DNA from: Tetradesmus obliquus
Lineage: Eukaryota > Chlorophyta > Chlorophyceae > Sphaeropleales > Scenedesmaceae
Reading direction: 5' to 3'
NCBI GenBank assembly: GCA_030272155.1
Contig: CP126196.1
Span: forward strand, 5,642,501 to 5,706,500
DNA length: 64,000 bases
The notes under the pieces were generated by a model. It was not told the origin of the DNA. It saw nothing but the letters and a program-made list of their open reading frames with translations, and did not search any database. Of the stretch, positions 21,690 to 38,939 are shown piece after piece (position 1 is the stretch's first letter; the number at the start of each line of letters is the position of its first letter). A program made the translations under genes and the position numbers.

Positions 21690-21994
21690 CTTGCCTTGTG
21701 AACATCAAGAGGAGCAGCAGCAGCAGCAGCACAGCCACAAAACAGAAAAATGTGAACAGCTGCACTGGTGTTGGCTGCAGATGCTGCCAAACCTCCCAAC
21801 AACCACAGGCAACATCATGTATGACAGATTGAGCAGTAGCAGCAGCAGCAGTTGCAGCAGGAGCTGTGGCAGCAGCAGCAAGCGAGATGGCTGCGCCCTG
21901 GCGCTGCTGCAGCACAATCTGCATCTACTTTGAAGCGGGCTGCAACTGCCGCCTGCTGCTGCTGCTGCTGCTGCTGCCGGAACCTGGACTAAAC

Positions 21995-22153
21995 CTGGAA
22001 CGAGTACAGGTCAATCTCACGCAGCGAGGGCAGCGTGACGCTGCGCAGGCCCATGCTGCTGCTGCTGCTGCTGTTGTTAACTTGACACACCTGGAACGAG
22101 TACAGGTCAATGTCGCGCAGCGAGGGCAGCGTGATCCTGCGCAGGCCCATGCC

Positions 22154-22189
<36 letters not shown>

Positions 22190-22353
22190 TAAACTGAAAT
22201 GGAATGAGTACAAATTAATTCACGCAGCGAGGGCAGCGTCACGCTGCGCAGGCTTGTGCCCCAGCTGCTGCTGCTACTGTCAGATACGCACCTGGAACAT
22301 GTACAGGTCAATCTCGTGCAGCGAGGGCAGCGTCACGCTGCGCAGGCCCATGC
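21995..22353 (-). repeat. Four tandem copies of the end of phosphatase exon 2
   Basis: Copies at about 22353-22292, 22257-22197, 22152-22091 and 22053-21995 each read [M]xLRxxTLPSLxEIDLYxFQ (the 22257 copy is damaged), matching REIDLYSFQ at the end of the real exon 2. Three end in CAG followed by GT (GTGCGT, GTGTGT, GTTTAG). All share a SVTLPSL segment that the functional exon lacks. Spacing is 95-121 bases. Most are preceded in sense by CAG runs. Confidence 0.5.
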
Positions 22354-22412
22354 CGCCGCCGCCGCTGCTGCTGCTGCTGCTGCTGCTGCTAACTTAAGTA
22401 CGTTTGATTTAC

Positions 22413-23429
22413 CTGGAATGAGTACAGGTCGATCTCGCGCATGCCCATGCCGGCTGTGATGATGTCAGCTGTCTGCGTGGCGCGCGTGAGCAGGCTGACA
22501 TACAGCGTGTCATACTTCTGCACATCGTCCGCCAGCTGCAGCAGCAAAGAACAGGCAAGGCAAGGCCATGTCAGCATGCAGCGCAGGGTTGAGCAGGGAT
22601 CGCGGAGTTTCACAGGGCGGGTGCAGCAATAGGGGCAGTGGGTGGCAGGAGTGAGCAAGTCTGGCGGATGCTGAGCAGCATGTTACTTCTGCAAACCAGC
22701 TGCAGCTGCAGATAAGTAAACAGCCAGATGCAGGGTAGCGTATCAGCTGGGTGTGCAGCAGCATCAAGTTTTCTGGAGCTCCATACGTGACGTGCTGCTT
22801 GCAGGAATAAGGGATCTGCTGCAGTGGCCGACGCTGCACACCGACACTGCGGCCCCAGCGAGCCATGTCAGCAAGCTGTTGGGGGCATTCACGAGCTCAA
22901 TTACAAACATGCAGCTTACGTTGAAGGCATATGTTGTCTGGCATTGTCTGACGTCTGTGCTGCATGGTGCAGCTGACCTGGCAAGGACTGCTGCTGCAAG
23001 GATACTGGCCCAGCAGTACAACACGTTTTTGCCAGGCTGCAACATCTCTTTCTATTTCCTTCAGATACCCTGCTCCTCTATAGCAGTCCTCACCATGTCC
23101 CTGGTAGTCTCAGCCTGGGCAATGCCCTTGGGTGTCAAGCAGGAATAGTTGCTGCTGCCCTGAATGCGGCCCTCCGCGTTCCATGTGCTCTGACCGTGGC
23201 GTACTAGTACCACCCTTCTACTTGTTTTGATGGGCGGCAGAGGCACAGGAGGCAGATCCTTACGATCTTCCAGTGAGCTAAACTCATCACTGCCTTTCCA
23301 CTCGAAGGCGCTAGCTGCAACCTCCGTGACTGCAGCCGAAGCGACAACACATCGTATAATTTGCTGTTGCCGGCCTTGCCAGCCAATGCATTGGCTGGGT
23401 GAGCCGCTGCAGGACCGAGTCAGCAGCAT
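22413..23429 (-). CDS. Plastid 2-carboxy-D-arabinitol-1-phosphatase-like, 5' half only
   Basis: Exon 1 23429..23094 starts at ATG and ends at GTGAGG. Exon 2 22535..22413 follows GCTGCAG and ends at GTAAAT. Both are phase 0. The first ~45 residues (MLLTRSCSGSPSQCIGWQGR...) look like a chloroplast transit peptide. RRVVLVRHGQSTWNAEGRIQ holds the RHG catalytic histidine of the histidine-phosphatase (phosphoglycerate-mutase) superfamily. QGSSNYSCLTPKGIAQAETT, YVSLLTRATQTADII and REIDLYSFQ follow the pattern of plant carboxyarabinitol-1-phosphate phosphatase, which removes the tight-binding Rubisco inhibitor in the stroma. The family continues GLLKxEGKEKFG..., a WQEDP segment and a second-histidine block (VVAHN); none is present downstream. 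Instead exon-2-end copies and then Crypton exons follow. Either the gene is truncated by the Crypton or the remaining exons lie outside the window. Divergent from COG7. Confidence 0.5.
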
Positions 23430-23931: not shown

Positions 23932-26900
23932 ATGACTGACTTGGCAGCATTCGCTGAGGAGGGTGTCGATTCGAAGGCCTGGATCAATGAAGCCTGTGCA
24001 GGCGAGTCTGGGTTGCGGGGCTGGGCCAAGTGAATGCTTCACTTGGAGCAGAGTTGACAGTTGCACTGCCCTATCCCCCTAGAAGCACATCTGCTGGCAC
24101 TACTGCAGCAAGGGCCGCGCAGTGCAGTGGCTTACCATTCATAAGTTACATGAGAATGCAATGGATAACCCCACCAAACAGGCCCAAAGCAGCTGTAGGC
24201 CTGAAACCTTTAGCAGCTGCAGCACCTGCAGTAGCAGACAAACAAAGCGCACAAGCAGTGTGTCACGCCACTGTTGTCTCGCACACATCCAGACCTCTTC
24301 AGACACAGCGGCTACATATGTTACTTCTCTGCAGATGCAGGAAAACAGCACACTGGCACTCCACAGCACTGTCGTTTGGCGTGATGCTTTTGTTGTTTTT
24401 TGATGCTTATGCTGCTTTCCTGCAAGCGCAAGCAACCACCAACCGCGCCCCTCGAGCGCTTCCTCGCTGCGCTGGAGATGCAGCAGAACAGCACACTGGA
24501 ACTCCACAGCACTGCCCGTTTTTGTTTTTGTTGTTTCTGTTGCTGCTGCTGTTGTTCTGCAAGCAAGCAAGCCCCCCGCTGAGCCCTTGGAGCGCGTTCT
24601 TGCTGCGCTAGAGATAGCGCCAGACTTACACTCAACAGCACTGCTGCTGCTGCTGCTTGTCCTGCAAGCAAAGGCAAGCCTCCTGCAGGACCGCTCGAGC
24701 GCTTCCTGGCTGAGCTGGAGATTCGGCTGCAGCTTGGGGTAGAGGAGGTTGAGATGTGCTGTGCATGATGCAGCAAACAAGCAGACTAACAGTCAGTTGC
24801 GCTACCTGCTGCTGCTGCTGCTGCCGCTGCTGCTGCTGCTGCTGCTGCTGCTGCGTTTCCTGCAAGCAGGCAAGCCACCAGCCGAGCCCCTGGAGCGTTT
24901 TCTTGCTGAGCTGGAGGAGCGGCTGCAGCTTGGGGCTGAGGAGGTTGAAGGCGGCCTGAGCGAAGTCTGTGGGGCTGCGCTGCGGCGCGTGCCTTTTGCG
25001 CTGCAGGTGATTGGAAGGCCGAGAGGGGACGTGGGCGCACTGCAGGTGGGTCATAGATGGGTGCTGGTGGTTTTTGTACTTGGGGCTTTGGTGGTGGCAC
25101 GAGCGCGCTGCAGGAGGGTGCGGCGTGTGGGCTGGCTGTGGTCGCCTGTGTTAGGATGCCATTTGCGGCCCTGATGAGGTGCAGGTCCCTGGCGAAGTGC
25201 GCGGCGCTGCGGCGCGTGCCACTCGCGCTGCAGGGTTTTGAAACGCTGAGAGGGGATGTGCGCGCTCTGCAGGTGGGTGACAGGGTCGTAGGACAGTTGC
25301 AGGATGGGTGTGGAATCGCTATTGAGATGGAGACATATGGCACAGGGATGTTGTTGCATCTGAAAGCCAGGTGGTTGGTGGGAGGAGCCACAGCTCTGCT
25401 TGGGTTTCTGCTCATGCTGCAATTGTACTGCTGCTGCTGCTGCTGCTGCTGGTGCCGCTGTAGCCCCTGCAGGGGTCCACGCGCGGGCTGTTGGGCTCAG
25501 TAGCGGCGGACGCTGATGCAGCAGCCGCATCTGCGGCGCCGCTGGCCGCGCCGCACACCGCGCGCACAAACATGGAGGTATGCGTGGCTGCGCACATGTA
25601 ATCTGAGGCAGGCTGACGAGCACATGGCCGTGCTGTTCTGTTCTGATGTGGGACGGGCCCTAGTATGCTGCTCATCGCTTGCATGCGGCACTTGGCCAGC
25701 AGTGCACACAGCTGCAGTGCGATCTTTTCCATGGCTGCATGCAGTGCCAGCTGCATCACATCCAGCATGCCGATTATCGCCGCTCGCTGTGCTGTTGCTA
25801 GGCGGGCTGCGCCACGCTGCGCGAGGCTGCAGAGCTGAGAAGCGCCTTCAGGCGCTGATTGCCAAAACATGCTGCTTCCCTGCCACGCATTGCACCAACA
25901 TCTCGCACGTTTGTGTTTCATCTGCTGTGCTGCCTTTCCAATTAGGTGGAATGCGCCACACTGCGCGAGGCTGCAGAGCTGAGCGGCGCCTTCAGGCGCA
26001 AATTGCCAAACGTGCTGCTTCCCTGCCACGCAATGCACCAACATCTCGCACATATAGTGTTTCATCTGCTGTGCTGCCTTTCCAATCAGGCGGGTTGCGC
26101 CACGCTGCGCGAGGCTGCAGAGCTCAGCCGCGCCTTCAGGCGTGTGGAGGAGGTGTTTGCTGCTGGAGACCTACCCCGCGTGGCTGACATGCTGCGCAGC
26201 ATGGCGCGCAGGTGAGACAGGCGCTTCTGCTGTATAAGCATGCGTGCCTTTGGTACGCTTTGGTTGGGAACTGGTTCTGTTCTGCCAGCTGGCGCTCGTT
26301 TGGTGGTTCACTGTAAATGTCAAAAACGTGCTTTGTGTACCCAACCCTGATTTCAAAGCGGTGCATAAGTTCTTGTCGGGCGCGTGGAGGGGCTGTTCGC
26401 GGCTGGGGACCTGCCACGTGTTGCGGACATGCTGTACAGCATCAAGCGCAGGTGCGCAGGTGGGGAGGGTTATGCTGTCGCATGGCAAAGCGTGCTGCTC
26501 CGCTGGGGGTTTCTCTTCTGTGAAGCTGTACATCGCCATGTGGCTTCACGTCTGCTGCTGCTGCTGCTGCTGCTGGTGTCTCTTCTGCCGCAGCCTCGCC
26601 TTGGTAGGCGATGTGCTTGAGTTCCGTGAGGGCCGCGGGCGGCTGACAGGGCTGGAGGACCGGCTGCAGCGGCGCGTGGAGGGGCGGCTGGCTGATGCGC
26701 TACAGGTTTGTATGGGCTGTGCATTTCGATTGTGATGCGGGCGGGAGGGGCTTGCTGCACTGCTGCTGCCGCACTGCCGGCTGGTTGCAGCAGGAGTGGG
26801 TTTGGTGTGTGTGTGTGGGGGGGGGGGGAGGGGAGCCAAGCGGCGTCCGGCACAGCTGTGCATGCTGTCGTGCCGGATGGGTTGGGGTTGGCCGTGGCAG

Positions 26901-29900
26901 GCTGGCTGGGCTGGAGGACCGCCTGCAGCAGCGCGTGAAGGGGCGCCTAGCTGATGCACTGCAGGTTTGCATGTGGAATGTGCAGTGTGGTTGTGCTAGC
27001 TCCTGTGTGGGATGGGGGTGGGGGAGGCAGCTGCAGCGGAGCGTGGAGGGCCGGCGGGCAGATGCGCTGCAGGTAAAACACAGCAGCAGCAGCAGCAGCA
27101 GCAGCAGGCAGGCAGGCGAGTTTGGGTGGGAATACAGGCGGTTGGGCGACGCGCTGCACGTGTGCGTGTGGAGGGGGAGGGATGCTGCACGCTGAGCAGA
27201 TGCGATCCGCAGCGCCTCAGCCAGCAGCACACCCAGCAATAACCCCAGCCATGCACACAAAATTTACCCCACAGCCACCTCGGCATGCCGGCACTGCCCA
27301 TACAAACAGACAAAGGAAGCATATTTTCTGTCATGCTGTGCCACGTGCAGGCCAATGCCAGCCAAGAGGTGTCCTCCCTGGCAGCGCTGCTGCTGGCAGT
27401 GGGCCGCTACAGCAGCCTAGAAGCTGCATACGTTGCCAGCGGCATGCCGCTTGTCTCAGCTATGTGGGATGAGGCAGCAGCCATGCTGGCGGGCTGCAGC
27501 GCAGCAGCAGCGGCAGCAGCAGCAGGCAGCTGAGCTGGTGGGGTGGGCGGCGGCTGGCTGCTGCTGCTGTACAATGGACCGATGATTTTGTTGGAAGGGG
27601 ATGCAGCGTGGCTGGCAGGGTGCCTGCCGGGGCAGCAGCGGCAGCTGCTGGTGGCGGTCACGGTTGCCGCGTTTGAAGAGGTGGGCTGTGTGGTTGCTTC
27701 TAGTGCAAAGCAGCATCATGCAGGGTGTTTCATGCGTCAAAACTCACTGCTACCAGCTGACTTGGTTTGCAGCTCAACCATTTGTTGAGAGAGCAGCTGG
27801 CAGCCCTGCACGCACATCCAGCTGGTCCATATCTGCACGGACTTGCCGCTGCCTTGTCTGCTATTGCTGAATCAATGGATTGGTTGCTTTGCAGCTTATC
27901 AAGTCGCTGCGGGAGAGGCTGGCGGCGCTGCACAGCAGCCGGCTGGTCTGCGGTCACACCTAATTCTCTGCTGCCTCACCTCCTGCTGCAATTTTGGTGT
28001 ATGATTTGCAGCTCAGCAAGTCGCTGCGGAAGAGGCTGGCAGCGCTGCACAGCAGCCGGCTGCTGGCGGGGCTGCTGGCTGCACGGCGGCTGCGCGAGCT
28101 GCTGGCGGCAGCAGCACCGGCAGCACCGGCAGCAGCAGCAGCAGCAGGCGATAAGGGTGGCTCTGCTGATGGCGCCGTGGTGCTGAAGCTGTTGAGGCTG
28201 GCTCTGGAGCCTGTGGAGCAACAGGTGGGAGCGCGGTTGCTTGTTTGGTTGATTATTTTGATTACTTTTGTGGCTGCTGGTTGCTACATAGTGACATAGC
28301 GGGTGCATTCTGTGCGCCGGGTGCCAGGCGACACCCTGCTGGCTGCACGGCGGCTGCGGGAGCTGCTGGCAGCAGCAGCAGCAGCATTGGCAGCAACAGC
28401 AGCAGCAGGCGAGGGTGCTGCTGATGGCGCTGTGGTGCTGAAGCTGGCTCTGGAGCCCGTGGAGCAGCAGGTGAGAGCGGCCGCTTCCCAAGCTGCTGTA
28501 TGATGTTGAATGTGTCAAACGCGTGCATTGTGTGTGCCGGTGTGTGCGGGTGTGTGCGCGCCTGCTCGTGCGGACATGCATGTGTGCTATCTCTATTGGG
28601 CGTGCTGTGTGTCTTGCATATAGTTATGAGTGTGCGCGCGTGCACGTGTGCGTGTGTATGTGTGCGTATGTGCGCGCGCGTGCGCAGGCGTGCGTGCATG
28701 CGCATTTGTGCGTGTGTGCGCGTGTGTGCGCGCATGTGCTCGCATGCTTGCGCATGTGTATCTGTGAGCGTGTGCGCGTGCGTGTGTGCGCGTGTGTATG
28801 TGTGTACGTGTGTGCGTGCGTGTGTGCATGCGTGCGTGCGCACTTGTATGTGTGCGTGTGTGCGCGCGCGTGCGTAGGCGCGTGTGCGTGCACATGTGTA
28901 TGTGTGTGCGGGTGTAAGCATGCGTGCGTGCGCGTGTGTATGTGTGCGCGCGTGCGTGCAACTTGTCCAGTCATATTTAAGAGTAAAAGTATGTACACAA
29001 CAAACATTGCGAGGTCCATGCGTTGCATGTATCATGTGTGTCATGTGCCTGTGTCACCGCGGATCAGCCGCTACACTCCACTGCAGGAGCCGTTCGTCAC
29101 TGCAGCACATTGCAAGGTTTGGCGTGTGCGTGCTGAAAGCTTTCATGTCACTAGGTGGCCTAGTAGGCCAATTCTAACCTGCAAGCCAGGTGGGTGGCCA
29201 ATGTGCATGATGCCCATGAGTGTTGCATATCTCGGGAAAACCCCGGTATGAGCACCTGTCGGCAGGCCCCCTTCATGGACACCCGCAACAATGAGGGTGT
29301 GCATGTGCACGCTAGAAGTATGCACACGGGAGGCATGCACGCTGGGATGATGCACTTTAACAGTGTGCACACCGCATGGTTTGCTTGTGTCCCGTCTGCA
29401 GATCAGCCGCTACACGTCACTTGAGGAGCCAGTCATCTCCGCAGCACTCTCCGCACCCCTGCCCATCAACGCAGCAGCAGCAGCAAACCCCAAAGCCTCC
29501 CCTGGCAGTGCTGCCGACTCAGCAGTAGCAGCAGCAGCAGCGGATGCTGAGGAGCTGGAGCAGGATGTAGCACAGAAAATGGCTGCAGCGGTGTATGCTG
29601 CTTTTGCTGCGCTGTGGGGCGTGGTGGAGCGATGCATGCAGCTGACTGGTGGCACTGAGCTGCCTGGGCTGCTGGCAAGTTTGGATAAGCAGCTGGCTGG
29701 GTACCTGCAGAGGCTGCAGGCGGCTGTGGGCATCATCAATGGCAGGTGAGTGGCTTGCTGTTGAACTGTGTTGTGCTGTGCCGGCTGAACTTGAAATGGA
29801 TGTGCTTAATGGTGATACCAGATGTAGCTGATGCAGGCCGCTGTGTTTGTGTTGCCCAAGGGCAGGATGCGGCCGCCTCATACCGCGGCGTTGGCAGCGA

Positions 29901-32900
29901 TGAATGGCAACACAGCAGGTGCAGCCTTGCCATGACAGGTAGCTGGTGCACTCATAGTTGCACTAAACGTTTCAATTGAAACGAAACGTTTCGTTTCTAA
30001 ACGCGTTTAAAACGCCAGTGCCTTGACTGAAACGCTGCTGAAACGCTGCTGAAACGCCATGTCACAGTATGCACTGTAGAGGCATGTAGAGGCCAGGTAC
30101 ACCTATGCTTTGCCTTTTAAATGCTTTTATATCATTGTTTCCAGTCTTTATAGTCAATACTTGACCCCAGAACTGTGCCTGCCGGGCTTTGAGGGCTGTC
30201 AAGGTAGTTGACAGCAGTACGGCTATAACACTTGAACATACTTGGCGATTGTCGCGTGACACATCTTCACAAAGTCACGATGAATCAACGTGTCAGTGCG
30301 TGATCTACTGATTACACATGATATCGTGTGAGTGTGTTGATGGTCACGGACCACGTGCCGCGAGGCACCACTGCACAGCAGCTGGAGGGCTTGCCCATAC
30401 TGGTGACTGATGGGACAACAAAAGGTGTTCAGACAACATCAACGATATAAAGTAAATGTTACGAATATCCCCGAGTACCTGAACGGGCTGCTAGGCCGAG
30501 TAACAAGGGGTTCTGCATTCAAACGCCTGAGCCCCACTAGAGCTGCCGTTTAGATACAGCGTTTCACACTGAAAGCGTTTAAAACGCGCGTTTTAAACGT
30601 TTCGTTTCGTTTCATAAACAGCCTGACCCCACGTTTAGTGCAACTATGGGTGCACTGGTGGGATGCCACCAACTTGTGCTGTGCTTTGGATGCTGCTGGT
30701 TATGGCTCAGCCGGCAGGACTTATGTCGCTGCCTTGTCATACACATCTAGGGCCTGCCACTACTTGTTGTTGCTGCTGCTCCTGTTGCTTGCTGCCGTGT
30801 CAAACCAATCGATCAAGTCAGGTACACCGGACTCTGCTAACACACATCCCAAGTTTTCTTGCACCCCGCCACTCAAGATTTCTTTTTTGTTCTACATGTG
30901 TAAGGCCTGCAACCACCTCTTGTTGCGCCTGCCCCTGCTGCGTCCTATTCCCACCACTCCAACCAATACCACACAGGTACACCTGCCTCGCTGCAGCAGC
31001 CTCACCCGCTGCTGACGTCAGCGTCATGCTGCAGCTGGTGCTGCTGGCTCGCCACATCAGCAGCAAACTCAACGCCCTCGAGACACACCTGCGCAGCACA
31101 CTCGCACAAACCATACCATGCCTGCAAGCCTTAGCAGCTGCAGGGCTACCACCGCTAGGATTGCCACCACCTGCTGTAGCAGCAGGCAGCAACAGCAGGG
31201 TGCGCCTGCTGCGGCAGTTGCAGCGGCGGCTGAGCTGCTGCCGCTGCGGCTGGCGGCGTTTCCGAACAAGCTGCCGCCGCTAGCCAAGCTGCAGGCTGCT
31301 GCTGCGAGCTCGCGCTTCATGTCGCTGCCATCAGCAACTGTCGCAGGTGCGCAAAGCATGTAAATAAAGGTTGTGTATGATTCTGCTGTATGTGGTGTGT
31401 TGTGATGGCGATCTGAAGCAGCAGCAAGGGCTAGACAGCCGCATCCTCTGCGCATAGATTAGGTAGCTATCAGTGGTGCACAGCTGTCTGCGTTTCCGAA
31501 CAAGCTGCCGCCGCTGGCCAAGCTGCAGGGTGCCGCTGCAACAGTCGCAGGTGCGAAGCGTATCAACACATGTGTCCCTTTACACATGCTTGTTCTACTG
31601 TATATGGCTCAGTAATGTCGGACAATTGTCAAGGAGCAGCACTGGCTGCAACTGCAGCGTTCCCACACCATGAGATAGGTGGCAAATCTTGCTCAATAGA
31701 TCAACGTGTTGGCTGAGGTCCTGCCACCAGCGCCCCTGCTGACTGAAGTGCAGAAAGGACTGACTTGCTGCTGCTGCTGCAGGTGGCGCCCTGTGCGAGG
31801 CCATATCTGCGGCTGTGTACGACGCGCTGCTGGCGCCAGTGGTGGCTGCGCTGGCACCTGCTGCTGCATTGATGCCAATACAACTGCTGCTGCTGCTGCT
31901 GCAGGTGGCGTGCTGTGCGACGCCGTATCTGCTGCCGTGTACGATGCGCTGCTGGCGCCAGTGGTGGCGCTGCTGGCGCCTGTTGCTGCACATTTTCCAA
32001 CACTGTTGTTGCTGCTGCTGCTGCTGCTGCTGGTTCAGGTGGCGCGCTGTGTGAGGCCATCTCTGCTGCCGTGTATGATGCGCTGCTCGCTCCAGTGGCA
32101 GCGTTGGCGCCCCTGCCTGGCTTGCCTGACTGGGCTGGGGCAGGCAGCGGCACAGGCGTGATGCCGGGAGCAGGTGAGTTTGGCAGTTGTATGGATGTAT
32201 GTGTGGATGTATGTATGGATGCCAGCTGCTTGGGGTTGCTGGTGCAGGCTTGAGCAGTATTGTGGGGCACTGGCATGACCACCTGCTACTGCAGCCACTG
32301 CGTTTTGGCAGCTTGCCAGCACATCACAACCCTGCATAGCACTTGGCGCAAGCAGGGTCGACAAGTCGGCAAGTACTCTGCTTTGAATGCTTGTATGAGG
32401 GTCTGGTCAGCAGCTTTCGTGGCAGGCAGTTGTACAGCAAGTTCCAACATGAGCCCTGTGTTGCTGCTGCTGCTGCTGCTCCTGCTGCTGCTGCTGCTGC
32501 TGCAGGTGCTGTGGTGCCGTCTTTCAGCGCCTACCCACTTCCTGCCGTAACTGCTGTTGGTGCGTTGATGAAAGGGTGCCGTGCTGCTGCTGCTTACTTT
32601 CATTTGCAGCGGCATGTGTGAAGCTTGCATTGCGTGACCAGATGGTATCAAGGTGATAAATAGTCTCAGCTGTCCTGTGTGTGGTGTGTACCTCACGTGC
32701 GCCCGCTTTTCTGTGCTGCCGCCAGGGGGGTACTTGAAAAGCCTGTTGTTGCCTTCTTTTGGGGTGCATACCCTTCTTGATCCTGCCTTTCTGTTGAGCT
32801 ATGTACCGACTCCAGTGATGTGTGCTGCTGCTGCCAGGGGAGTACCTGATGGCGCTGCCGCAGCAGCTGGAGGTGCTCATGGGAGGTGAGGCAGCAGCAG

Positions 32901-34929
32901 CAGCGGGCGGCGGCAGCCAAGAGGCAGCTGCACTGCAGGCGGAAGCAGCAGAAGGGGATGAGCTGGCTGCAGAATGGCTGGACAGGGTGAGCAGTGTTTC
33001 AGGGCGGTGCTGTGGGTTATGGGTGTGGGGTAAGCAGAAGAGGCTGCATTACTGCAGCAGGCAGCGAAGGCAGCAAGGCTGCCGAGGGGCTGGACGGGCT
33101 TGAGCTGGGATCGCACTTGCTTGTTGCACCAACGTCCTCGTGGCACCCAGCAAGTCAGCCAGCCTGCTGCCCTCTTGTACGTGTTGTATGTGTACTGCTA
33201 CTCCCTATCCAAGCCATTGTTGCCAAGATATGCCCAAATGTGCAATTGTATCCTGCAGGTGGTGCAGTGGGCTGGGTTGTTGTATGTGGATTCGCTGCTG
33301 CAGATCAATTCTCTATCACGGTCCGGCTGTGCTCAGCTGGCGGCAGACGCTGCCCTTGCACCCTCCCCTTCCCAGGTCGTCGGTCTTTGTATGTGCGCTG
33401 TTGTAGATTCAATTCTCCGTCTAACTCCAGCCAATCAACATGTCGCCTTGCTGCGCAAAACGTATGCTGCAGGCGGCGCAGGCCTGCTATACGCCGAGGC
33501 CCTGCTGCAGATCAAAACTCTGTCTCCATCCGGCGGCGTGCAGCTGGCAGCAGATGCAGAGTACATCGCCAACGTGATGGCAGCACTGGCAGTGGCGCCG
33601 CCGCCCGCGCTGGTCACTGCGCAGCTGTTTGCTGCTGCGCCTGCTGATGCGTTTGGCAGCCTTGCGGAGGGTGCGCTGGCGGGCGGCAGCGCAGACATGA
33701 AGGTGGGCGGCATTTGTGACTCTGTTGTTTGTTTGCTGCTTTGTGCTGTGGAAAGGCTTTTGCATCAGGTGACTGTAGCCTCCCTTTAGTTAAAGCTGGA
33801 GGGCACGCGGCGCCGGCGAGCAGCTGGCAGCAGATGCAGAGTACATCTCCAGTGTGATGGCAGCACTGGCAGTGGCGCCGCTACCTGCCCTCGTGACTGC
33901 GCAGTTGTTTGCTGCTACGCCTGCTGATGCGTTTGGCAGCCTGAGAGAGAGGTCTGTTACAGGGGTAGGCAAGCTATCACCCTAGAGTGAGTCACTTGCC
34001 CCTCTTTCAGTTCACATATCGTGAGAACCAGATAGCAAGCCACAAGATGCCACCAAAGTAAACTCCGGCAGCCTGGCGGAGGGTGCGCTGGCGGGCGGCA
34101 GCGCAGACATGAAGGTGAGAGGGGCAGGTTGTGGGCTGCTTGTATTTTGTTAAGCAGGCACCGTAGCTTAATTGGTAGAGCACTGGCTTTAGGTCGGGAG
34201 GTGCGGGTTTGAATCCCGCCGGTGTCGCCCCTCGCGGTCAGGAACCAGTGGCAGTAGGTCTGATCCCTGCTGTGGTGACCGATGAAATGGGGAGCGAGCG
34301 CTAAAAACTGGTACGGGTTCGTCCCGGTAGGAAGGCGCGTATGGGGTAGAATGTAGGTTGCGTGATCCGCACTAGTGCGCACACACGTAGCCTCCAACGG
34401 GCGCCCCTAAGAAAGGTTGAGACCGCTCTCCACATGTGGTGTGCACGACCGAAAGGCACCGTGGATTGCACTATGGTCTGGCTGCAGGTATCTGCTGTGG
34501 GTCGCTCTACAAGAGTTGATGGCCATAGAGTGCTATGGCGAGTGTAGCCGCTTAGGCCGCCTTGGCCCATAAACTTACGCGCCAAGCCCATCAAAGCTCG
34601 GCCCGCGTAGCTATTTCTATTCCTGTTATGCCGAGGTTTGCGCTACCACATGCCGCGCCTGCTAGCAGGTCTGGCAGCCTAGCGGGGGCCGCACAATACG
34701 ATTGTGTGCATACAGCAGGTAATCATATCAGTCTATTGGTTCGCTAGAGCTGCTGTGTTGATGTTGATGTCGCCCTTGTGTTCTGCAGGTGCTGAAGGCC
34801 ATTGCTGCAATGCGCGGCATTGAGTGGAGCGAAGCAGCAGCCATGGCAGCAGCAGCGAGTGCCAGCCAAGACAGTGCAGCAGCAGCAGCAGCAGCGCAGC
34901 AGCAGCCTGATGGCGACGAGCTGCTGTAG
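23932..34929 (+). CDS. COG7: Conserved oligomeric Golgi complex subunit 7 (COG7)
   Basis: Exons by homology and splice signals: 23932-24001, 24870-25044, 25473-25577, 26090-26211, 26594-26705, 27351-27680, 28012-28224, 29402-29745, about 30995-31345, 32039-32173, 32505-32559, 32838-32986, 33259-33375 and/or 33473-33702, 34789-34929 (TAG). The start [20 protein letters not shown] matches the COG7 N-terminus (F..DDFDxKEWIN). [91 protein letters not shown] and [12 protein letters not shown] follow COG7 in order to its C-terminus. COG7 is a lobe-B subunit of the COG tether for retrograde intra-Golgi vesicles. Exon 1 seems to use a GC donor (CAG then GCGAGT). The 27351-27680 frame has a TGA at 27531-27533 between two conserved blocks, so a small unrecognised intron is likely there. 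Many exons have extra tandem copies, listed separately; which are spliced is unknown. Confidence 0.5.
24433..24755 (+). repeat. Three upstream copies of the COG7 exon-2 start
   Basis: Copies at about 24433-24486 ([17 protein letters not shown]), 24563-24616 ([18 protein letters not shown]) and 24669-24755 ([20 protein letters not shown]) precede the functional [20 protein letters not shown] at 24870. Each follows a gcaag/gcag-type acceptor context. The third, nearest copy is longest and closest in sequence; the first two also carry a related intron segment (cagcacactggcactccaca-like). Confidence 0.5.
25187..25272 (+). repeat. Second copy of the COG7 exon-2 end
   Basis: [29 protein letters not shown] follows a GTGCAG acceptor and ends at GTGGGT, duplicating [13 protein letters not shown]...RGDVGALQ at the end of exon 2 (to 25044, also GTGGGT). 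The copy has both splice sites, so it could be an alternative or cassette exon. Confidence 0.5.
25803..26005 (+). repeat. Two upstream copies of COG7 [16 protein letters not shown] exon with its intron
   Basis: Copies starting near 25811 and 25954 precede the functional exon (start 26090). The period is 143-145 bases and includes intron sequence: ctgcttccctgccacgca.t and ttcatctgctgtgctgcctt occur in each unit. Copy 1 ends in TGA soon after FRR; copy 2 reads on as KLPN. Intron identity is high, so the event is recent. Confidence 0.5.
26383..26451 (+). repeat. Second copy of the COG7 [13 protein letters not shown] exon end
   Basis: [23 protein letters not shown] ends at CAG then GTGCGC, duplicating [18 protein letters not shown] at the end of exon 26090-26211 (GTGAGA). 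It has a donor but no clear acceptor. Confidence 0.5.
26898..27072 (+). repeat. Two further copies of the COG7 [19 protein letters not shown] exon end
   Basis: [21 protein letters not shown] ends at 26963 (GTTTGC) and [16 protein letters not shown] ends at 27072 (GTAAAA). The functional exon ends at 26705 (GTTTGT). Each downstream copy keeps the 3' end and donor and loses more of its 5' part. Confidence 0.5.
27773..27950 (+). repeat. Two upstream copies of the COG7 [15 protein letters not shown] exon
   Basis: Copies begin after TTTGCAG at 27773 ([20 protein letters not shown]) and 27895 ([18 protein letters not shown]); the exon used in the model begins after the same TTTGCAG at 28012 ([20 protein letters not shown]). 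The period is about 120 bases. All three keep an acceptor. Confidence 0.5.
28338..28471 (+). repeat. Second copy of the COG7 [13 protein letters not shown]...LALEPVEQQ exon end
   Basis: [39 protein letters not shown] ends at CAG then GTGAGA, duplicating the second half of exon 28012-28224 (GTGGGA). Poly-Ala length differs between copies. Confidence 0.5.
28505..28965 (+). repeat. ~460-base TG/CG alternating purine-pyrimidine tract in a COG7 intron
   Basis: Irregular (TGTGCG)n/(TGTGTA)n/(GCATGC)n sequence, almost wholly alternating purine-pyrimidine. Such sequence is known to favour left-handed Z-DNA. It generates long Cys/Val- and His/Thr-rich ORFs on both strands that are artefacts. Confidence 0.5.
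29060..29118 (+). repeat. Upstream copy of the COG7 ISRYTxLxEP exon start
   Basis: [19 protein letters not shown] at 29060-29118 resembles [17 protein letters not shown] after the GTCTGCAG acceptor at 29402. The upstream copy lacks a clean acceptor (gcggatcag) but ends at GTTTGG. Confidence 0.5.
29946..30655. mobile_element. Non-autonomous TIR element in a COG7 intron
   Basis: A 710-base segment has inverted ends GTGCACYCATAGTTGCACTA plus AACGT (left at 29946, right complement at 30655). Clusters of AAACG/CGTTT motifs follow just inside both ends (aaacgtttcgtttc; cgttttaaacgtttcg), and three tgaaacgctgc units stand near 30030-30058. No coding frame is recognisable. A TG dinucleotide flanks both sides as a possible target duplication, but the superfamily cannot be assigned. 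Many AAACG subterminal motifs suggest transposase binding sites (inference). Confidence 0.5.
31485..31555 (+). repeat. Second copy of the COG7 [12 protein letters not shown] exon segment
   Basis: ctgcgtttccgaacaagctg ccgccgctggccaagctgcag repeats the segment at about 31255-31292 ([12 protein letters not shown]) and ends again in an ACAGTCGCAG-type sequence (gcaactgtcgcaggtgcg versus gcaacagtcgcaggtgcg). Confidence 0.5.
31783..32000 (+). repeat. Two upstream copies of the COG7 [18 protein letters not shown] exon
   Basis: Copies start at 31783 and 31904; the modelled exon starts at 32039. Each follows a (CTG)n or CTG-rich run ending in CAG (TTCAG in the last). They read [40 protein letters not shown] and [20 protein letters not shown]. 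All three keep frame and acceptor; only the last continues to a conserved donor (GTGAGT at 32174). The period is 121-135 bases. Confidence 0.5.
32725..32775 (+). repeat. Decayed upstream copy of the COG7 GEYLMALP exon start
   Basis: gccgccagg then [12 protein letters not shown] at about 32725 resembles gctgccagg then [11 protein letters not shown] at 32838, preceded in both by a TGTGCTGC-type stretch. Similarity is short. Confidence 0.5.
33795..34114 (+). repeat. Third copy of the COG7 QLAADAEYI...GGSADMK exon, interrupted
   Basis: [20 protein letters not shown] repeats the exon at 33473-33702 ([20 protein letters not shown]); an earlier partial copy is at 33259-33350 ([14 protein letters not shown]...QLAADA). 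This third copy is split by a 124-base insertion with an 8-base target duplication (33935-34074) and ends at 34114 with the same ATGAAG then GTGAGA donor. Confidence 0.5.
33935..34074 (+). mobile_element. 124-base insertion with 8-base target-site duplication
   Basis: GGCAGCCT occurs at 33935-33942 and at 34067-34074, bracketing 124 bases absent from the sister exon copy (TTTGGCAGCCTTGCGGAGG at about 33652). The insert starts GAGAGAGAGG and ends AAACTCC, with only weak terminal inverted similarity. An 8-base duplication is typical of hAT-type or introner-like insertion; the family is not established. Confidence 0.5.
34157..34227 (+). tRNA. tRNA-like sequence with possible UUA anticodon, or SINE head
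   Basis: A 7-bp acceptor stem pairs (GGCACCG with CGGTGTC, one G-U). TA, a D-arm (GCTT...GAGC with AATTGGTA loop) and a T-arm (GCGGG TTTGAAT CCCGC) are all canonical, so A-box and B-box promoters are present. The anticodon arm is one or two bases short: a 4-bp stem CTGG/TCGG with a 7-base loop CTTTAGG gives anticodon UUA, which would read UAA/UAG. A 5-bp stem leaves only a 5-base loop. It sits in the last COG7 intron, same strand. It may be a tRNA pseudogene, the head of a tRNA-derived SINE (downstream 34230-34740 is unlike other intron sequence), or an unusual suppressor-type tRNA. Confidence 0.5.
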
Positions 34930-36474: not shown

Positions 36475-36721
36475 GCTCGTTTATAACTTAATAGAGGTGT
36501 CCGATACTTGAACCCAAGAGCGAGCTGGCTTGCTCACGGCAGCAGCACAGGCAGGACAACTGCAGGTACAGATGCGGATGCTGCAGGAGGGGACTTGCCA
36601 GGGTGTGGTTCTGCAGCAGCTTTTGGTTGAAACGTGGCTTGGATCAGTGTGATGTTGGCTTTGCTGCCCATACAGCATCATCAGAGCCTGCAGGCAAGGG
36701 TGGTCACTTTAGGGTTTTGAG

Positions 36722-37517
36722 TTAAGGGGGAAAGATGGTATTAGCATTCCTAAGCCGCCAGGCGCCTGCTGGCGCTAAAAGTCTGTTTATGGGCATCTTA
36801 TACTATAATATAAACATCCTGTCAAGACTGGGCCGGACCTTGAAGTTTGCACTTGAGTGAGTTCGCACTTGAAGTGAGTTCCTTGCTGCTGTTCCCCGTA
36901 CTGCTACTGTCAACTGCCGACAGCTACTCCAGTGATTTGGGACGCCTGGGAGCTGTAGCCAGCAGGCCTAGCTGTACTAGCACTCATATTATCACAAAAT
37001 ATGACTGATATGAGACTGCTAGCCTTCCATGTGCTACATGCGATGCTCACCGACAGGCCTGCCGTCGTAAGGGCCCCCGTGTTCAGCCAAACAACTACCG
37101 AATTGAATGTCGTCCAGTAGATAGAATGAATAGCTGGTAAAGATCATTTTGATGCAGTGCTGCCCAATCCTATTCGGCCAGGAGTGCCACGCCGTGTTCG
37201 TGCACTGCGATCGGACAGAGCAGGTCTGGCCGAGTAGGATGGCTTCAGCGTTTCTTTTACAACACTTTTTTACAAACCCAGGGATTACGACTCTGCAATC
37301 TCAGGCCGAACGGTAAATTTTTGATCCCGCTGCCCATGTCTACTGTCATGCATGCAGCAGGTCTCAGCCAGCCATACTGGTGCCTGGCCCCCGGCCCCAT
37401 CGACCTTACCCGCCGAAGAGGAGTCATAACTTAAATAATGTTTGAGTGAATGTGTGCAGTTGTGGCGCTTGTGTTGAGTTTCCCAGCACCCCAGTCAATA
37501 CCATCTTTCCCCCTTCA
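36722..37517. mobile_element. TTAA-type non-autonomous TIR element, copy A
   Basis: Begins TTAA-GGGGGAAAGATGGTATTA and ends TAATACCATCTTTCCCCC-like then TTCA (a mutated TTAA). The interior matches copy B at 38141 over most of its length, strongest in the last ~200 bases (CATGCATGCAGCAGGTCTCA). No transposase frame. TTAA target duplications are typical of piggyBac, but the GGGGGAAAG terminus is not the usual one, so the superfamily is inferred only. Confidence 0.5.
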
Positions 37518-37678
37518 AAAAATTGACTGTATGGTTGTGGTGCCGGGCAAATAGGTGGCTTGCAGGTAAACACACCTCAGGCAAGCTATTATTGAGCACA
37601 CATCTCAGCTACGCGCTGCAATAGAGCCACTCAAGGTGCCCTTGAGGCACTGCAGCACTCTGTCCTCAGGCAGTCTAA

Positions 37679-37999
37679 AGGCTCGTTTCTGCGGCGTTGT
37701 GGAAGTGTTGTGGAAGGCTTGCCACAACGAATTGTGTTTCTGCAGCGTTGTGGAGCCTCGTTGTGGAGAGCGATAGCGTTGTGGAATTTCCCACCACCTC
37801 CGTGGGTAGTGTGGAGAAGTGTGGCGTTGTGGAAGGGAGAACAGCAGTGGCCAGGCCAAATAACAGTCGTCTTCCACAAAGCTCCACAACGCTGGTAGAA
37901 ATGAAATCGTTGTGGACAGCTCCACAACCCAGCGTGTTGGAAAGGTTCCACAACCACTGAGCGTTGTGGTAAGTGTTGTTGTGGTGCAGAAACGGGCCT
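37679..37999. mobile_element. Harbinger-type MITE
   Basis: A 321-base element has terminal inverted repeats AGGCTCGTTTCTGC / AGGCCCGTTTCTGC (13 of 14 match) and a perfect TAA target duplication on each side (37676-37678 and 38000-38002). A 3-base TWA duplication with a GGCCCGTTT-like terminus is the PIF/Harbinger MITE signature. The interior is packed with GTTGTGGA and its complement, so it can fold extensively. No coding capacity. Confidence 0.5.
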
Positions 38000-38140
38000 T
38001 AAGTTGGCAACCGTGCAGGCATTGCTGCAGCGCTGGTAAGTCCCATCTGCGAGCCGCTGGTTGCTTCTTTTACGCAGTCCCAGTCCTGTGCTAGTGATGC
38101 CAAGGTGACTTATTGGTGTCACTCAGATCATGCCATCATG

Positions 38141-38930
38141 TTAAGGGGGAAGGATGGTATTAGAGTTCCAGAGCCACCAGGGGCCTGCTGGCTGTGAAGT
38201 GTGCAAATTACTACACCTTATATCATATTAACACCATCCTATCGATGCTGGGCCGAAACTTGAAGGTTGCATCAGTACCCGGCACATGCTGGGGTCAGTG
38301 CCTTGCTGCTGTCGCCAGCAGTACTACTGTCAAATGTCGACAGCTGCTGCAGTAGTCTAAGACGCCTCGGAGCTGCAGCCAACGGTCGCAACGTTTATAA
38401 TAGTACAATTATGAACTGTACAAGGCTTTTGAGCGTTTAATGAGCTGTCTGCGATGCTCACCGCCCGGCCATTTATCATCAAGGCCCGCGTGTGGAGCCA
38501 AAAATCTGCCGAATTGAGCGGCGTCCAGCAAATAGATCGGTTAGCACGCTAGACTATTTTGACGAAGAGCTGCTCGATCCTGTTCGGCCAGGAGTTCCAG
38601 GCCGTGTTGATGCACAGGGATCGGGCAGAGCAAGTCTGGCCGAATAGGATGGCTTCAGCGTTTCACAATACATTCTTACAATACCAGGGATCATGATTCT
38701 GCGATTCCAGGCCGAACGGTAAATTATTGAGCCCGCTGCCCATATCTACTGTCATGCATGCAGCAGGTCTCAGCCAGCCTTACTGGTGCCTGGCCCCCGG
38801 CCACATAGACCTTTGGCGCCGTAGAGGCATCCAAACATACATGAAATTTGTAAATATGTGTGCACTTGTGGCGCTTTTGCCAGAAATTGTGTTTCCCAGC
38901 ACCCCAGTTAATACCATCTTTCCCCCTTAA
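38141..38930. mobile_element. TTAA-type non-autonomous TIR element, copy B
   Basis: A 790-base element, TTAAGGGGGAAGGATGGTAT ... AATACCATCTTTCCCCCTTA A, with intact TTAA at both ends. Same orientation and nearly the same length as copy A, about 620 bases away, with clear but imperfect identity, so the pair is not a very recent duplication. Confidence 0.5.
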
Positions 38931-38939
38931 CAAAAAGGA

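Follow-up and report, generated by a model that had tools for sequence, protein, structure and literature searches.

Introns are known to be gained by tandem duplication, which in a case from potato crossed an intron-exon boundary (PMC4974935 and PMC3443670, in excerpt). The Dscam arrays are built from duplicated, alternatively spliced exons (PMC3236188, in excerpt). Small tandem duplications are also made by fill-in synthesis at staggered breaks (PMC8355091, in excerpt). A search of the open-licence literature found nothing on duplicated exons in Scenedesmus or on partial exon duplication in Chlamydomonas. Each Dscam copy is equipped with both splice sites. The present study describes a COG7 gene of Tetradesmus obliquus in which many exons are accompanied by tandem copies, all of them partial.

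Partial exon copies at two COG7 loci

The stretch of DNA that was analysed, here called the window, comprises 64 kb (C6:5642501-5706500) of a genome of 104.66 Mb in 17 contigs. The gene at 23.9-34.9 kb of the window was identified as COG7. By a genome search with a 301-base query from this gene, we detected a second COG7 locus on contig C12, which is collinear with about 21.95-38.1 kb of the window and holds an intact COG7 paralogue of 14 exons and 850 aa (Pfam COG7 at residues 3-815 of the model, E 1.6e-90). At both loci, the donor of exon 1 is a GC site (CAG/GCGAGT, window 24001/24002).

Self-comparison of the window revealed 22 close direct pairs, defined as less than 3 kb apart with E<=1e-6 after removal of low complexity, and 18 of these lie within 24329-34117. 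Counted in six 10-kb bins and one 4-kb bin, the pairs are distributed as 0, 0, 16, 6, 0, 0, 0. Of the remaining ones, three come from a short array upstream of COG7 (21941-22441) whose units measure about 100 bp and which is also present at the C12 locus. The last is a pair of tandem copies, about 800 bp in size, 75% identical and 1.4 kb apart (36721-38935). Since the 10 kb of COG7 gave 18 pairs and each of 20 shuffles in 10-bp blocks gave none, chance and low complexity can be rejected as explanations. The tandem exon-segment copies seen by the initial annotation are real, with at least 17 extra pieces. Nine of its eleven named segments were recovered at the number it had given by blastn with the paralogue exons, the third copy of GLEDRLQ being incomplete (exon bases 71-112 only). 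The other two, KSLR and ISRYT, needed other evidence: for KSLR two of three copies were found in this way and a degenerate third in other comparisons, and for ISRYT the full exon alone was found, with an upstream copy recognised by eye (Table 1).

With the C12 exons as queries at both loci, we counted 17 extra pieces for the window copy and 26 for the intact gene on C12. They are carried by exons 2, 4, 5, 7, 9, 10 and 13 in the window (7/14) and by exons 2, 4-10 and 12 at C12 (9/14), so that the number and place of the pieces differ between the two loci. The median length is 67 bp (range 41-152), and the difference to the respective exon amounts to 0-32%, two pieces being identical to it. Two exon 6 pieces at C12, which lie 238 bp apart, are identical not only to the exon but also to at least its next 60 intron bases; the duplication process therefore has been active recently. 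Without exception, the 22 exon-start pieces precede the full exon and the 21 exon-end pieces follow it.

Table 1. Exons and exon pieces of the COG7 gene in the window; positions are those of the window, and exon bases are counted in the matched exon.
Feature	Exon bases	Position	Strand	Remark
Exon 1		23932..24001	+	extra copy none found
Exon 2 5' piece	1-54	24432..24484	+	upstream of full exon 2
Exon 2 5' piece	1-49	24567..24615	+	
Exon 2 5' piece	1-79	24674..24752	+	
Full exon 2		24870..25045	+	
Exon 2 3' piece	105-176	25201..25272	+	partly included in GenBank model P0021
Full exon 3		25473..25577	+	extra copy none found
Exon 4 5' piece	1-54	25802..25855	+	
Exon 4 5' piece	7-54	25952..25999	+	
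Full exon 4		26090..26211	+	
Exon 4 3' piece	47-113	26376..26442	+	
Full exon 5		26594..26705	+	
Exon 5 3' piece	20-112	26870..26964	+	frame broken
Exon 5 3' piece	71-112	27031..27072	+	
Full exon 6		27351..27680	+	in-frame TGA at 27531-27533
Exon 7 5' piece, degenerate		27763..27823	+	61% to reference copy; counterpart aligns in paralogue
Exon 7 5' piece	6-51	27900..27945	+	its frame forms end part of GenBank model P0021
Full exon 7		28012..28224	+	
Exon 7 3' piece	59-216	28319..28470	+	
Exon 8 5' piece, degenerate (ISRYT copy)		about 29063..29112	+	by eye; below blastn threshold; outside counts
Full exon 8		29402..29745	+	
Full exon 9		30977..31346	+	7-bp deletion vs paralogue
Exon 9 3' piece	287-338	31490..31541	+	
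Exon 10 5' piece	1-76	31783..31858	+	
Exon 10 5' piece, second	1-76	31905..31980	+	
Full exon 10		32039..32173	+	
Full exon 11		32506..32559	+	extra copy none found
Full exon 12		32838..32985	+	extra copy none found at window locus
Exon 13 5' piece	1-92	33259..33350	+	
Full exon 13		33473..33702	+	paralogue's first 7 bases deleted here
Exon 13 piece	69-198	33814..33943	+	downstream
Exon 13 3' piece	190-237	34067..34114	+	98% identical to full exon
Exon 14 with stop codon		34789..34929	+	extra copy none found

To the initial annotation the gene in the window seemed alive. In our comparison it is probably dead, a recent pseudogene, because exon 6 contains an in-frame TGA at the place of a sense codon in the C12 paralogue, 7-bp deletions are found in coding exons 9 and 13, and the sole GenBank model found for it by protein searches (P0021) is only 195 aa long. 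The deletion in exon 9 is lighter evidence of decay, since four T. obliquus COG7 models (P0002-P0005) omit that part. P0021 takes in the 3' piece of exon 2 and terminates in a 5' piece of exon 7, as matched by eye. Judged by their differences to C12 at the three codon positions (45, 26 and 149), the full exons in the window still show the sign of long past constraint.

Two introns of this gene hold additional sequences. An insertion in intron 13 (34157-34700) resembles a tRNA at its head (Rfam tRNA, 53.9 bits; ARAGORN anticodon TTA); a genome search listed 14 matches including itself, of which five others are long (334-467 query bases, 83-87%) and none lies at the C12 COG7 locus. On these features it is classified as a dispersed, SINE-like repeat. 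Intron 8 is some 690 bp longer than its C12 counterpart between aligned blocks, and the extra stretch (about 29950-30650), with inverted ends noted by eye (TAGTTGCACTAAACGT and its complement), is probably a small DNA transposon.

Exon pieces in further genes and over the genome

For the distribution over the genome, we sampled 10-kb stretches at 25 fixed places, 20 on C1-C10 and five on C11 and C13-C16. At least one close pair was present in 13 of the first 20 stretches and at least 19 pairs in four of them, and all of the last five stretches had at least 18 pairs. Altogether, nine of the 25 stretches hold at least 18 repeat pairs, or seven without two low-GC ones of satellite-like look (L027 and L031, GC below 0.5). 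The repeats of L029-L033 entered as pair counts only, without gene assignment. Two stretches were chosen from the seven for closer analysis. One (L023) holds UPF1 (Regulator of nonsense transcripts 1, E 7e-193), with 18 pieces on 11 of 12 exon stretches, which were set by eye and two of which adjoin; the other (L024) holds a CWC22 homolog (E 3e-23), with 16 pieces on 6 of 7 exon stretches. Five short open stretches (three in L024, the others in L016 and L014) gave no match in Pfam. An effect confined to COG7 is ruled out by the sampled stretches together with UPF1 and CWC22. The claim that this genome duplicates exon segments in place stands for COG7 and at least two further genes. The pattern is patchy over the genome. 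A COG7 model of Scenedesmus sp. NREL 46B-D3 (P0006) repeats, by eye, both the start of exon 9 and the end of exon 13, and this kind of duplication may therefore predate T. obliquus.

In each of the genes studied, half or more of the exons bear one to nine partial copies, and the spacing between copies, that is the unit length, is 107-308 bp. All 77 pieces adjoin their exon on the same strand and on the side predicted by tandem duplication, with start pieces upstream and end pieces downstream (COG7 43/43, UPF1 18/18, CWC22 16/16, three unrelated genes). None of the 77 is a whole exon, and the initial annotation has to be corrected in this respect, every counted copy being partial. Random placing of equal unit lengths would give 1.9 whole-exon copies in the window COG7, 3.2 in the C12 COG7 and 1.3 in UPF1, with probabilities of 0.12, 0.029 and 0.21 of finding none; as a sign of purging, the absence of whole-exon duplications is suggestive only.

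Divergence of the pieces and of their intron flanks

Between the two COG7 loci, 98 of 651 sites differ in the pieces (15.1%), close to the 657 of 3890 in introns (16.9%) and unlike the 208 of 2388 in coding sequence (8.7%). Changes private to the COG7 pieces number 24/625, 27/656 and 28/417 at codon positions 1-3 (p 0.08 against equal rates), whereas those private to the full exons number 9/372, 3/384 and 24/284 (p 4e-7); the two patterns differ (Fisher p 0.002). An earlier polarised count had shown a third-position excess in the pieces of both C6 (24/374, 22/389, 63/319) and C12 (26/580, 20/601, 49/480), but it was set aside for private changes because changes of the full exons before the locus split were mixed in. 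For UPF1, where four exons with two pieces each could be used, piece-private changes are 8/5/10 by codon position, and changes common to both pieces versus the full exon are 0/0/7. The unpolarised piece-to-exon differences are 17, 11 and 49 (p 0.036 against 1:1:2), these UPF1 counts all being made with gapped alignment. CWC22 gave 6/204, 5/206 and 15/163 piece-private changes and 10, 10 and 51 piece-to-exon differences. Summed by hand over the three genes, third positions account for 53 of 128 private changes in pieces and for 34 of 47 in full exons. In-frame stops are present in one of 18 UPF1 pieces and in two of the 43 pieces of COG7, each of which also has an indel. That the pieces evolve more freely than the full exons can thus be regarded as shown in part: they appear near neutral in COG7, less clearly so in UPF1 and not in CWC22, where a third-position bias remains. 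The check on substitution patterns proposed by the initial annotation has a different outcome for each gene.

Its suggestion that the copies are silent holds for most of them by appearance, but a few turn up as in-frame micro-exons in GenBank models. The models P0003 and P0004 of the intact gene contain 15 and 12 extra residues which match 3' pieces of exons 6 and 5, and these two as well as P0021 place a piece beside the full exon, in frame. By our reading, a CAG inside the piece would serve as acceptor.

For a piece that is 95% identical to its exon, one would expect nearly the same similarity in the adjoining intron, but this is often otherwise: many pieces are 90-98% identical to the exon, yet the intron next to them is unrecognisable. 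In COG7, flank similarity at z>=3 was detected for 17/22 upstream and 5/18 downstream pieces (22/40 in total, leaving out the 3 of 43 pieces that stop short of the exon edge), and control flanks between the paralogues were similar in 20/26 cases. The corresponding values are 3/9 and 2/9 in UPF1 (5/18 in total) and 3/10 and 2/6 in CWC22 (5/16). Similarity often stops about 3-12 bp from the splice site, even in pieces of 94-98% identity. Among 180 pairs from 19 sampled stretches, the C12 locus and the window, similarity over the whole unit was found in 2 of 46 pairs at >=90% identity versus 52 of 134 below 90%, a contrast that is partly bias because alignments reaching into introns have lower mean identity. 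Pairs restricted to introns make up 0/21 in C6 and 4/47 in C12, whereas random placing gives 59-65%. This near lack may in part reflect a faster fading of intron copies, since there both copies drift.

Tandem duplication predicts that the ancestral intron follows the last 3' piece. For exons 2, 6, 7, 8 and 12, the intron after the last 3' piece of one locus does match the one that follows the full exon at the other locus (z 43, 12.7, 9.1, 4.3 and 7.8, respectively; for exon 2 it is the intron behind the 3' piece in the window). Exon 13 showed nothing in this comparison (z 0.4), and exons 4, 5 and 9 have 3' pieces at both loci. However, under tandem duplication a copy of this intron should be found behind the full exon, too, and that copy is mostly unrecognisable. 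An example is exon 2, where the spacer after the full exon is unlike the ancestral intron (z 0.1) although that intron is still about 86% alike between the loci. Exchange between exons and their pieces would explain such a contrast of exon and intron, but COG7 is without sign of it since the locus split: at 37 site-matched positions the pieces do not track their own locus (Mantel-Haenszel, 65 observed versus 65.0 expected). Conversion after the split was thus not seen, and recombination is unsupported in COG7.

Origin of the pieces and comparison with known systems

We favour, with a probability of roughly 0.6, an origin of the pieces by small local tandem duplications of which one break lies within an exon and the second within the intron next to it, mostly hidden by splicing. 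Small tandem duplications would arise often, with copies 107-308 bp apart. A duplication with these breaks would preserve one intact exon together with its two splice sites and add a piece inside the intron that has an acceptor only (upstream) or a donor only (downstream); partial copies on fixed sides are the consequence, exactly as seen. The spliceosome would mostly pass over such half exons, and selection may therefore tolerate these duplications, whereas whole-exon duplications with both sites would enter the mRNA and be purged. From then on the pieces would drift, far less constrained in their coding than full exons, and decay slowly. The least secure step is the last one, in which exon parts would be kept alike after the introns have diverged, most simply by recombination between stretches of exon that are still similar. 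The density of CTG/CAG is higher in exons than in introns (116 vs 75, 118 vs 87 and 80 vs 67 per kb) but could not be tied to breakpoints.

The behaviour of the flanks leaves room for a different reading of the boundaries. It is conceivable, though we consider it doubtful, that the copies are bounded by the splice sites, the exon ends being copied or kept alike and the intron a few bases away not. A stricter version, in which an unknown process copies the exon end into the neighbouring intron and halts at the splice site, so that the intron flank is never copied, seems to us somewhat less probable still. The abrupt ends of similarity near the splice sites, the scarcity of intron-only pairs and the spacer of exon 2 are in its favour. 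But the side rule is a natural mark of tandem duplication for which no such process is needed, some pieces do share intron, as the two exon 6 pieces of the paralogue with their at least 60 bases, and we know of no enzyme that copies exon ends up to the splice site. That selection maintains the pieces, because they serve as alternative micro-exons or tune splicing as decoys, is rather improbable. Three GenBank models with 3' pieces in frame, the mostly third-position changes of CWC22, the similar leaning of the UPF1 piece-to-exon differences and the small number of in-frame stops would fit it, whereas COG7 pieces diverge at the rate of introns with private changes near equal by codon position, the private changes of UPF1 are of the same kind, and the pieces differ in number and place between the COG7 loci.

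The mutually exclusive exons proposed by the initial annotation are very improbable: the copies are exon-like, in tandem and often keep one splice site, but this reading is unsupported because not one of the 77 is whole. Still harder to credit is a mobile element or introner whose insertion into exons would leave long duplicated target sites. The order of full exon, unrelated spacer and exon piece with ancestral intron does resemble such an insertion, but none of the three spacers searched has a match other than itself, except that one also matches the paralogue (in a search that skips very common words), and COG7 piece lengths vary; a dispersed multi-copy family is thus unsupported for these three spacers. 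Assembly error, to which tandem repeats are prone, has an equally slight chance, as nearly all copies differ from their exon, the second COG7 locus and two other genes follow the same side rule, and the Scenedesmus sp. NREL 46B-D3 model repeats exon ends as well.

Local duplication of exon ends is common in the genes studied, affecting 7 and 9 of the 14 COG7 exons, 11/12 UPF1 stretches and 6/7 CWC22 stretches. The pieces are natural cases of graded age for how splicing shields genes from partial exons and how introns grow, as well as for the birth of micro-exons and for exon parts that stay alike while introns diverge. Automatic gene models in T. obliquus may include exon pieces. If the copies were indeed bounded by splice sites, either a genome-wide exchange between exons and silent pieces would renew live exons in part from silent ones or an unknown process would recognise exon ends, and the introns of T. 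obliquus would largely be graveyards of neighbouring exons.

Among the described systems, the potato case is similar in that the duplication there took in an intron end together with the beginning of the exon behind it, with use of a cryptic site and copies in tandem. As described in the excerpts, however, it comprises a single duplication and a single new intron, whereas half or more of the exons in T. obliquus have one to nine partial copies, mostly apparently unused (PMC4974935, PMC3443670). Dscam-type exons are likewise tandem exon-like copies, separated by introns of about 100-200 bp, but according to the excerpt whole exons are copied there and none of the T. obliquus copies is whole (PMC3236188). 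Fill-in at staggered breaks, which in general gives rise to short tandem duplications, could be the starting event here; the duplications in the excerpted account are below 100 bp and from the human genome, whereas the units in T. obliquus are longer and tied to exons (PMC8355091).
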